From: Nitrospirota bacterium
GTDB lineage: Bacteria; Nitrospirota; Thermodesulfovibrionia; Thermodesulfovibrionales; UBA1546
Direction of reading: 5' to 3'
Length of the DNA: 64,000 bases
Assembly: GCA_009773185.1 (NCBI GenBank)
Contig: WPIF01000005.1
Span: 1 to 64,000 of the forward strand
A program made the translations under genes and the position numbers. Within the stretch, counting starts at the first letter, position 1, and each line of letters begins with the position of its first letter. The notes below the pieces were generated by a model that saw only the letters and a program-made list of their open reading frames with translations, ran no database searches and was not told the origin of the DNA. Shown here piece by piece: positions 6,609 through 9,570 of this stretch.

Positions 6609-6638
6609 TTGACATAAGCATCCTTGTTCTGATATTTT
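6609..6638 (+). promoter_or_regulatory. Sigma70-type promoter for the fluoride-responsive operon
   Basis: A perfect -35 TTGACA (6609-6614) and a TATTTT -10 (6633-6638) are spaced by 18 bp. Transcription would start at about 6645, at the beginning of the riboswitch aptamer. Confidence 0.55.
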
Positions 6639-6641
6639 AAA

Positions 6642-6722
6642 GGCGGCGATGGGGTTCGCCATTAACTCCGTTAGAAGACACGGGGTAAACCGTCCTGATT
6701 ATCAGGGCTGATAACTCCTACT
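6642..6722 (+). ncRNA. Fluoride riboswitch (crcB motif)
   Basis: The conserved fluoride aptamer blocks are present in order: GGCGATGGGGTTCGCC, ATTAACTCC, a variable hairpin region including CCTGATTATCAGG, then GCTGATAACTCCTACT. These match the known motif, in which fluoride binding with Mg2+ stabilises the fold and usually prevents transcription termination. It precedes a cation/proton antiporter and an MFS gene; antiporters are an established class of fluoride-riboswitch target. The insert between ATTAACTCC and the CCTGAT hairpin is longer than in short model aptamers. Confidence 0.88.
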
Positions 6723-6805
6723 GTATTAGCTGATAGCTGTTAGCCGTTAGTTTTAACTGACTGCTGAGCGCTGACAGCTGATTGCTGATAAGTAGGGGTT
6801 TTTTT
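6713..6805 (+). terminator. Riboswitch-controlled terminator with repeat-filled loop
   Basis: The aptamer 3' strand AACTCCTACT (6713-6722) can pair along its whole length with AGTAGGGGTT (6791-6800, one G-T pair), followed directly by a T-run. This would destroy the aptamer, so the ligand-bound fold and the terminator are mutually exclusive. The 68-nt loop is almost entirely AGCTGAT/GCTGACA heptamer repeats. Confidence 0.75.
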
Positions 6806-6823
6806 ATTTCTGGAGGTTTTTAA

Positions 6824-8002
6824 GTGGCAATAAGTCTTGCGTTGATAATTCTTCTGGGGCTTTTTTCAGACCATTTGTTCAGGAGAATAAAACTTCCGGG
6901 GTTAATCGGAATGCTCCTGGTGGGGATATTCCTTGGGCCTTATGTATTCAACGTAATAGACCCGGTCATACTGACAGTCTCATCTGATTTCAGGATGATA
7001 GCGCTGATAGTCATTCTCTTAAGGGCAGGATTTGCCACAAAAAAAGACACCCTGAACAGGATTGGAAAGACAGCGGCATTAATGGGCTTTGTCCCTGCTG
7101 TATTTGAAGGCGCTGCCATCACATTTATTGCGCCATTCTTTTTTGATATAAGCCTTCTTGAATCAGCAATCCTCGGGTTCATTGTAGCTGCTGTATCTCC
7201 TGCAATCGTTGTCCCGATGATGCTCAGGTTTATTGAAAGCAATAAAGGAGCAAAAAAAGGAATCCCGACACTCCTGCTTGCCTCTTCATCACTGGATAAT
7301 GTATTTGCGATAGTAATATCTTCGGCCCTAATCGGAATGTATTCAGGCAAGGGCACAAACATCTTTATGAAACTTCTCGAGATACCTGTTTCAATAAGCC
7401 TTGGTATCGCACTTGGGGCCGCGATTGGTTTTGCATTGTACAGGGTATTTAAAAAATATCAGCCCAGGGCTACCAAAGAAGGGATGATTGTTATTGGCTC
7501 CGCAATACTTTTAACATGGGTTGAAAAAACTGCCAGGCCTTTTGTTGCCGTTTCAGCATTGTCAGGTGTCATAGCAATAGGGTTCATAATACTCGAAAAA
7601 TCAGAACCCATTGCCCATAAGATATCCCGGAAACTCGGCAAAATATGGGTCTTTGCAGAGATACTCCTTTTTGTTCTTGTAGGAGCACAGGTTAATATCC
7701 ATGTCGCATGGAACGCCGGCCTTGCGGGTCTCGTGATTATATTTATTGGCCTAATTGCCAGGAGTGCCGGAACATACATCTCTCTTATAAAAACCGGCTT
7801 TAGTATCAGAGAAAAGCTTTTCTGCATGGCCTCATATATTCCAAAGGCAACTGTTCAGGCGGCAATAGGCGCTGTGCCGCTTTCCCTTGGAGTTAAATCA
7901 GGCGATATTATTCTTGCAGTTGCGGTTCTGGCAATTCTTTTCACAGCCCCATTGGGCGCCATAGGTATGAATATCATTGGAGAAAAAGTTCTGGAAAAGT
8001 GA
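6824..8002 (+). CDS. Cation/proton antiporter, fluoride-regulated
   Basis: A 392-residue membrane protein with about 11-12 hydrophobic segments of the CPA (Na+/H+ exchanger) type. The N-terminus DHLFRRIKLPGLIGMLLVGIF (split: DHLFRRIKLPGL, IGMLLVGIFLGP) and the mid-protein SPAIVVPMML and SSLDNVFAI segments fit this family. The start is GTG, 8 bp after a TGGAGG ribosome site. The riboswitch upstream implies a role in fluoride stress, by exporting fluoride indirectly or restoring pH after HF entry; which one is not shown by the sequence. An MFS gene follows after 12 bp. Confidence 0.88.
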   Translation: MAISLALIILLGLFSDHLFRRIKLPGLIGMLLVGIFLGPYVFNVIDPVILTVSSDFRMIALIVILLRAGFATKKDTLNRIGKTAALMGFVPAVFEGAAITFIAPFFFDISLLESAILGFIVAAVSPAIVVPMMLRFIESNKGAKKGIPTLLLASSSLDNVFAIVISSALIGMYSGKGTNIFMKLLEIPVSISLGIALGAAIGFALYRVFKKYQPRATKEGMIVIGSAILLTWVEKTARPFVAVSALSGVIAIGFIILEKSEPIAHKISRKLGKIWVFAEILLFVLVGAQVNIHVAWNAGLAGLVIIFIGLIARSAGTYISLIKTGFSIREKLFCMASYIPKATVQAAIGAVPLSLGVKSGDIILAVAVLAILFTAPLGAIGMNIIGEKVLEK

Positions 8003-8014
8003 TAATCTCTATTC

Positions 8015-9247
8015 GTGACTGATAAAAAAATTGCCGGCCTGGAAAGAAACGTCTTTTTCACAGGGCTTGTAAGTTTTTTCATGGACTTCAGCTCTGAGAT
8101 GATATACCCGCTCGTGCCTATTTTCCTCAGTTCTGTTCTTGGTGTAAACAAATCCGTAATAGGATTAATAGAAGGTATCGCTGAAAGCACAGCAAGTTTA
8201 TTGAAAGTATTCTCGGGCTGGTTTTCCGACAGGATAGGCAAGAGAAAAATATTCATGCTTGCAGGATACGGGATCTCTACACTGAGCAGGCCCCTAATTG
8301 CTTTATCTGCTCTCTGGGGGCATGTGCTTGTGTTCCGTTTTATTGACAGGTTTGGCAAAGGCATAAGAGGCGCTCCAAGAGATGCGATAATTGCTGAATC
8401 AACTCCGACGAAAGACCTCGGCCGCTCATTCGGTTTTCACAGGGGGATGGACACTCTCGGCGCTGTTGCAGGCCCGGCAGTTGCATTCATCCTGCTTTCT
8501 TTTTTTACAGGCAATTACCGTCTTGTCTTCTGGCTTTCAATGATACCCGGAATGATTGCGGTGATGGTAATAGTATTTTTTATTAGAGAAAGGGGTCAGG
8601 GAGTAAAGGGTCAAAGTTCTAAAGACTCTGACACTATGACACTCGGGCGCTCTGATACTGATACCAGCTCGCCCCCTCGCGCTTTTGACTGGCGCTTCAA
8701 GGCATTTGTGGCAATCGCAACCCTGTTTGCAATAGGCAATTCAAGCGATGTTTTCCTCATACTTAAGGCAACAGATACAGGAATTAAAGAAACGCAGATA
8801 CCAATACTCTATCTGTCATTTAATTTTATATATGCACTGACCTCCATGCCCGCTGGAATTTTATCAGACAGAATAGGAAGAAAAAGGATAATGCTTGCAG
8901 GCTTCATACTCTTTGGTTTTATCTACTGGGGATTTGCAAATGCATCAGAGCAGAAACATATATGGGGGCTGTTTCTTCTTTACGGTGTTTTCATGGGGCT
9001 CACAGAAGGAATTCAGAAGGCATATCTCGGAACTATAATCCCTGAAAAATTTAAGGCAACAGGATACGGCATTTATAACACATTCACAGGTTTGGCATTA
9101 TTCCCCGCAAGCGTCGCAGGCGGCTGGCTATGGGACAAATACGGGCCTCACGCAACATTTTATTACGGAACAATTACAGCCCTCTTCTCAGCAACGCTCT
9201 TTCTGACAGTATTCGGCCTGGATAAGCTTAAACAGAAGAGAAGCTGA
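8015..9247 (+). CDS. MFS transporter
   Basis: A 410-residue, twelve-segment major facilitator protein. The MFS signature between segments 2 and 3 is visible as GWFSDRIGKRK, repeated in the second half as GILSDRIGRKR. The central cytoplasmic loop (about residues 190-230) holds a low-complexity Ser/Asp/Thr stretch encoded by repeat-like DNA (8590-8660). The GTG start is 12 bp after the antiporter stop, so both genes are probably under the fluoride riboswitch. The substrate is unknown; resistance-type MFS proteins are the closest match. Confidence 0.85.
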   Translation: MTDKKIAGLERNVFFTGLVSFFMDFSSEMIYPLVPIFLSSVLGVNKSVIGLIEGIAESTASLLKVFSGWFSDRIGKRKIFMLAGYGISTLSRPLIALSALWGHVLVFRFIDRFGKGIRGAPRDAIIAESTPTKDLGRSFGFHRGMDTLGAVAGPAVAFILLSFFTGNYRLVFWLSMIPGMIAVMVIVFFIRERGQGVKGQSSKDSDTMTLGRSDTDTSSPPRAFDWRFKAFVAIATLFAIGNSSDVFLILKATDTGIKETQIPILYLSFNFIYALTSMPAGILSDRIGRKRIMLAGFILFGFIYWGFANASEQKHIWGLFLLYGVFMGLTEGIQKAYLGTIIPEKFKATGYGIYNTFTGLALFPASVAGGWLWDKYGPHATFYYGTITALFSATLFLTVFGLDKLKQKRS

Positions 9248-9303: not shown

Positions 9304-9570
9304 GTGGAAGAGATTAATGAATTAATACAGCGATACGGGCTTGAAGAAGACGGGGAGCATGTCATCATCCCCATAGGCGGCAACAAGCGCTGCTTTATCT
9401 TAAAGAGAAGGTACATACGCGTTGTATATTCCGAAACCCACTATGTTGATTACCCTCTGACGGAAGTGATAGAGGCAATTATAAAATATCCGGGGTTGGC
9501 CCTGAGTGAGGCGCTCTATCTGCTGCATGGTGAGATTGATACACAAAAGGATGAAGATCCAGAAAGATAG
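9304..9570 (+). CDS. Hypothetical protein, 88 aa
   Basis: A small soluble protein with a GTG start. It has the beta-rich core HVIIPIGGNKRCFILKRR followed by a helix LTEVIEAIIKYP. I do not recognise the family. It lies 56 bp after the MFS gene on the same strand and may be part of that transcription unit. Confidence 0.6.
   Translation: MEEINELIQRYGLEEDGEHVIIPIGGNKRCFILKRRYIRVVYSETHYVDYPLTEVIEAIIKYPGLALSEALYLLHGEIDTQKDEDPER

Follow-up and report, generated by a model that had tools for sequence, protein, structure and literature searches.

Fluoride riboswitches of the crcB type (Rfam family RF01734) terminate transcription in Bacillus cereus through an aptamer composed of hairpins and a loop pseudoknot, followed by a terminator that overlaps the 3' strand of the pseudoknot, a layout known for crcB RNAs (PMC2864571, PMC8752731); Na+/H+ antiporters rank second among the genes located behind such riboswitches (PMC11139923). 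Here we describe a locus of this type in the Nitrospirota contig WPIF01000005.1 (assembly GCA_009773185.1), of which the first 64,000 nucleotides, referred to as the window, were analyzed. The locus has the aptamer hairpins, the pseudoknot, the terminator over the pseudoknot 3' strand and the antiporter cargo in common with the B. cereus element, and is unlike it in having a terminator of 86 nt instead of about 30, a loop formed by a repeat array, an extra hairpin in the aptamer, and a gene of the major facilitator superfamily (MFS) in the unit. The window is contig 34 in a 2.79-Mb genome, named G000, whose closest relatives are metagenome-assembled genomes of Nitrospirota (Thermodesulfovibrionia); G001 is its congener. 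We consider it highly probable that the locus is a transcriptional fluoride ON switch for an antiporter-MFS unit in which a terminator filled by a repeat array is tolerated. Judged from sequence, a platform filled with repeats in this way represents a new form of a known kind of switch, and it is recurrent in the order.

The original prediction recognized the fluoride motif by inspection, and the Rfam search that it called for returned RF01734 with 49.1 bits (E = 1.4e-10), above the gathering score of 34 and covering positions 1-64 of the 64 in the model, with a 24-nt insertion relative to it. This is the sole riboswitch reported by Rfam in the 64 kb, and the fluoride riboswitch is present as a single copy in the G000 genome. 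The P1 hairpin and the second hairpin were found by folding and the loop pseudoknot by reading the sequence. The 5' arm of the terminator is formed by the pseudoknot strand, for which terminator and pseudoknot would thus compete. A sigma-70-type promoter that matches the consensus at 10 of 12 positions lies upstream (shuffled regions average 0.5 sites in the same consensus scan), and the RNA start is predicted just 5' of the aptamer.

Pairing of the aptamer 3' strand AACTCCTACT with AGTAGGGGTT ahead of a run of Ts, also part of the original prediction, was confirmed by folding. The whole 116-nt stretch reached -48.7 kcal/mol (z = -6.1), a value as good was obtained with 0 of 200 shuffles, and the same arms pair in the fold of the complete leader. 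The loop folds by itself at -29.2 kcal/mol and does consist of the heptamer repeats of the genome, since a two-unit heptad pattern has 135 matches in G000 versus 2 for the reversed control. The contexts of these repeats were assessed in a 421-kb sample of G000 containing 22 heptad clusters, and only the one in the riboswitch was located, as read by eye, in a hairpin with a T-tract. A general terminator finder applied to a sample of G000 produced mostly coding hairpins, and a stricter one gave as many hits in the reversed sequence (24 vs 28) and hence no baseline for the frequency of long terminators in G000. Cyanobacterial STRR-like (short tandemly repeated repetitive) sequences are dispersed heptameric tandem repeats. 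The window heptads resemble them in their seven-base period, genome-wide dispersal and mostly short arrays, and differ in sequence, in phylum and in having one array inside a riboswitch terminator.

G001 has the same riboswitch design with a terminator of 94 nt. Identity between the two genomes amounts to 97% in the promoter and upstream leader; the aptamer with the 5' arm is identical at 81 of 81 positions, with a 2-column gap at the edge of the loop, and the 3' arm with the following leader at 32 of 32. The loop is 77% identical with 6 gap columns, and the antiporter genes are 96.3% identical with 44 substitutions. A fixed aptamer and arms combined with a variable loop is the pattern expected if selection holds the former and leaves the loop free. 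The proposal that an array had grown inside the platform without breaking it thus stands in its second half, as the working parts carry no substitutions in G001; for its first half, insertion of the array is an equally possible origin.

We infer the switching from the established crcB mechanism (PMC2864571, PMC8752731) together with the sequence. In the presence of fluoride and Mg2+ the aptamer would keep AACTCC in the pseudoknot, the terminator could not close, and transcription would read through into the antiporter and MFS genes; without fluoride, AACTCCTACT would pair with AGTAGGGGTT and transcription would end at the T-tract. In this hairpin, a self-complementary array of heptads from the genome itself appears to have taken the place of the usual apical part, and would be tolerated because the array folds on itself and keeps both arms adjacent. 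The array changes fast, in contrast to the invariant aptamer and arms. As a likely by-product, about 50 more nucleotides would be made before the arms can pair, giving a longer time for fluoride binding. The coordinates of all features are listed in Table 1.

Table 1. Features of the fluoride riboswitch locus and its two genes (window coordinates).
Feature	Position	Strand	Basis and remarks
Sigma-70-type promoter	6609-6638	+	TTGACA 6609-6614, 18-nt spacer, TATTTT 6633-6638, TG before TATTTT
Fluoride aptamer RF01734	6636-6727	+	Rfam, fold; unchanged in G001
Aptamer P1	6645-6648/6657-6660	+	Fold
Pseudoknot	GGGGTT 6651-6656 with AACTCC 6713-6718	+	Complementarity read from sequence
Extra hairpin ACTCCGT/ACGGGGT	6665-6686	+	Fold; between both aptamer hairpins, formed by the 24-nt insertion
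Second aptamer hairpin	6692-6698/6702-6708	+	Fold
Terminator 5' arm AACTCCTACT	6713-6722	+	Fold; overlaps pseudoknot 3' strand (AACTCC)
Heptad array, GCTGAYW type	6723-6790 (68 nt)	+	Fills terminator loop, folds as hairpin extension
Terminator 3' arm AGTAGGGGTT	6791-6800	+	Fold
T-tract, seven Ts	6799-6805	+	Sequence
GGAGG ribosome-binding site of antiporter	6812-6816	+	Sequence; GTG start 6824
Na+/H+ antiporter, cation:proton antiporter superfamily, 392 aa	6824-8002	+	PF00999, 1.4e-43
MFS transporter, 410 aa	8015-9247	+	PF07690, 5.2e-52; fluoride-linked clade

The position of the extra hairpin is occupied by a hairpin in 8 distinct sequences of an alignment read by eye. In the same alignment its first pair is mostly A-U and is G-C in G134, a compensatory change, and its third pair is U-G, U-A or C-G, the last also compensatory. 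We did not retain the name P2 for this element, as stem numbering differs among papers; in one of them P2 is the second hairpin and P3 the pseudoknot (PMC8004769). The pseudoknot 6-mer AACTCC is found a second time at nucleotides 6664-6669, in the extra hairpin, and it is repeated in the 5' strand of that hairpin in G000, G009 and G011. This second copy might act as a decoy competing with the aptamer if the extra hairpin were open.

Fluoride riboswitches are present in 76 of 149 relatives. About 80 fluoride loci were fetched and their terminators predicted, resulting in 102 non-redundant switches of the order; in 77 of them the terminator overlaps the strand of the pseudoknot. Loop lengths, which the original prediction proposed to compare in relatives, fall into two classes: 62 of these terminators measure 22-40 nt and 15 measure 54-93 nt, with none in between. 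Among the other 25 switches, some leaders appear by eye to pair the pseudoknot strand with the ribosome-binding site. The fluoride leaders of one genus (G035, G062, G093, G100 and G120; loci L044, L049, L060, L064 and L101) are without a T-tract hairpin, and GGTAGAGTTA in them can pair with the pseudoknot strand; control there seems to be exerted at the ribosome-binding site or in another non-terminator mode.

The long terminators hold different fillings between the same arms. GCTGA-type heptads occur in G000 and G001, a GCTAA-type array in G115, and a GC-rich palindrome with the sequence CACCCCCTCTAATCTCCCCCTTGCTAAGGGGGAGGCGAG.GGGGGT, in part diverged, in nine cases (twice each in G012 and G134, and in G018, G007, G108, G146 and G121), and the filling is unclassified in G138, G094 and G045. 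The G115 loop is weakly identified as a genome repeat (10 matches vs 2 in the control), and this was not shown for the loops of G094 and G138. At the switch preceding the antiporter type of the window, the family members G004, G009, G011 and G014 have terminators of 30-33 nt, G007 has the palindrome, and G000 and G001 have the heptads, so that this orthologous switch was lengthened at least twice within one family.

These two length classes, and the different fillings that arose at the orthologous switch, could also mean that long terminators are selected as timers, a delayed hairpin raising the sensitivity to fluoride and the repeats being mere raw material. We regard this as possible but rather doubtful, because the repeat sequence drifts fast, as seen in the loops of G000 and G001, and a 30-nt hairpin suffices for most relatives. 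Of comparable, low probability is a second explanation, according to which the palindrome-filled terminators are one old platform variety that spread by recombination between genes and genomes, as opposed to a dispersed repeat inserted repeatedly. In favor of it, the riboswitch copies have the core CTCCCCC, intact or with single changes, while most dispersed copies have CCCCCCC. On the other hand, the two switches of G134 hold the palindrome in opposite orientations, the orthologous locus of a single family holds two unrelated fillings (G007 versus G000 and G001), and the carriers stand in differing gene contexts. Like REP-like (repetitive extragenic palindromic) elements and miniature inverted-repeat transposable elements (MITEs), the GC-rich palindromes are about 50 nt long and have 2-36 pattern sites per genome in five genomes; unlike them, their copies in these genomes lie in T-tract hairpins only in fluoride terminators. 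Of 64 palindrome sites read, some of them twice via overlapping loci, arms and T-tract were found only at five, all in fluoride terminators. Descent of the riboswitch palindromes from the dispersed element is likely, although the difference in the core leaves it short of proof.

The first gene of the unit has a PF00999 (Na_H_Exchanger) domain with 149.7 bits, as in proteins of the CPA2/NHA group, and can be considered standard cargo of a fluoride regulon, given the second rank that Na+/H+ antiporters hold in the cargo of these riboswitches (PMC11139923). Its product would counter acid loading. The nearest solved structure is NHA2/SLC9B2 (1e-38), with which it aligns over most of its length. 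It differs from NHA2 in the Asp-Asp ion-binding pair, the second Asp being replaced by Asn (LDN in place of FDD in the alignments), and the change could alter ion coupling. Within the antiporter cluster, 8 of 15 proteins have the Asp-Asn pair and 7 have Asp-Asp; the relatives sharing Asp-Asn are the seven proteins of G001, G004, G007, G009, G011, G014 and G018. The NCBIfam potassium/proton antiporter families were considered and rejected, their scores being far below the cut-off. The antiporter gene is separated by 12 nt from the MFS gene on the same strand, and no terminator-like site was found in the 8002-8015 gap.

The second gene encodes a protein with an MFS_1 domain (PF07690, 177 bits) and the MFS fold, the AlphaFold model having a predicted local distance difference test score (pLDDT) of 84. 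The model resembles the DHA1 exporters NorA and YajR, and the best Foldseek match is NorA with 17% identity; this match is generic and names no substrate, and was therefore set aside as a clue to the substrate. Unlike NorA and YajR, the protein reaches the cut-off of no named subfamily (0 of 25 NCBIfam families shown) and is found in a fluoride-linked neighborhood. It would act in fluoride stress by exporting some substrate.

In 23 of the 74 genomes of the set, an orthologue of the MFS gene follows a fluoride riboswitch on the same strand at a distance of at most 5.2 kb. A scan of public genomes gave 80 MFS-related loci, which belong to Nitrospirota, to Deltaproteobacteria-type lineages and to others. 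A search of these loci with a motif combined with the pseudoknot (sensitivity 102 of 104; 0 matches in 1.13 Mb of reversed sequence) found 36 riboswitches in 30 loci, every one on the MFS strand; that of L183 is probably false, leaving 35 riboswitches in 29 loci. In L181, L188, L197 and L201 the riboswitch, confirmed by Rfam in all four, lies 64-376 nt before the MFS region, with a CPA2 match in the gap in L188. Furthermore, crcB and DUF190 genes adjoin the MFS gene in about 13 loci that have no riboswitch. A tree of 63 MFS proteins requires 17 changes in the linkage, and well-supported branches force at least 10 of these, which indicates that the linkage recurs and was not inherited once. The recurrent linkage to fluoride riboswitches and to crcB-DUF190 in independent lineages of several phyla is what a fluoride-regulon MFS clade should show, and comparative genomics thus backs the earlier suggestion of a new fluoride-linked function. 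We regard this clade as a good candidate for a new family of fluoride-linked genes; no literature linking an MFS clade with fluoride riboswitches was found among openly licensed papers.

Some observations weigh against the ON switch and its two-gene unit. The GGGGTT/AACTCC pseudoknot includes one G-U pair, the antiporter and MFS genes are about 7-9 kb apart in G001, so that joint transcription of the two is not a constant feature even of the genus, and of the 80 nearest relatives of the MFS gene 51 are without a riboswitch on the DNA at hand. The last two, together with the facts that MFS genes are common and that their function is not readable from sequence, would fit an MFS gene that is a passenger, standing behind the antiporter by chance and without a role in fluoride stress. 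We consider this improbable in view of the strand-consistent linkage in 29 loci with 0 matches in the reversed control, the four loci with the riboswitch just ahead of the MFS region, the crcB-DUF190 neighbors and the repeated changes on the tree. Least credible is a long hairpin that does not work as a terminator and leaves the antiporter expressed without fluoride control, for although a 68-nt loop is unusual and consensus terminator scans limited to 8-nt loops miss the hairpin, the loop is itself paired and makes the hairpin continuous, and neither the arms nor the T-tract differ in G001, in spite of the substitutions in the antiporter gene.

The G001 locus (L093, G001:C191:4100-10800) has intervening genes that are unrelated, NifX-like, sigma factor and efflux protein as named by eye, and fragments matching the antiporter end and the MFS gene are located among them; the assembly has an estimated contamination of 9%. 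In the window, an 88-aa reading frame (9304-9570, + strand) begins 57 nt behind the MFS gene; it matches no Pfam or NCBIfam family, and none of the other fluoride units examined is followed by a similar frame. Across the order, a dynamin-like GTPase gene (PF00350) lies within 5.2 kb behind 43 of the 102 riboswitches (loci L032-L111), more often than any other identified gene, and is first behind the riboswitch in 23; no paper linking dynamin with the fluoride riboswitch was found among openly licensed papers. Genes for AAA ATPases, HEAT-repeat and HAD-like proteins are also recurrent. In L035, L091 and L102 the riboswitch precedes hydrogenase/formate-hydrogenlyase-type operons with NADH-dehydrogenase-like subunits, a kind of operon described for this riboswitch class.

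A broader proposal, which we put forward only tentatively, is that the MFS exporter clade is an unrecognized component, induced by fluoride, of the fluoride resistance of Nitrospirota and of Deltaproteobacteria-like bacteria, and that fluoride terminators are a preferred site for self-complementary repeats that lengthen the decision time. One would expect a compact regulatory RNA to be destroyed by repeats, and yet sister lineages hold the same switch in short, palindrome-filled and heptad-filled forms. Such natural variants show which part of a riboswitch may change, and with them the role of the length of the terminator loop can be tested directly. As for the recurrent MFS gene, it belongs to a conserved gene set that includes the dynamin-like GTPase, and is a concrete candidate for a new fluoride-tolerance transporter.
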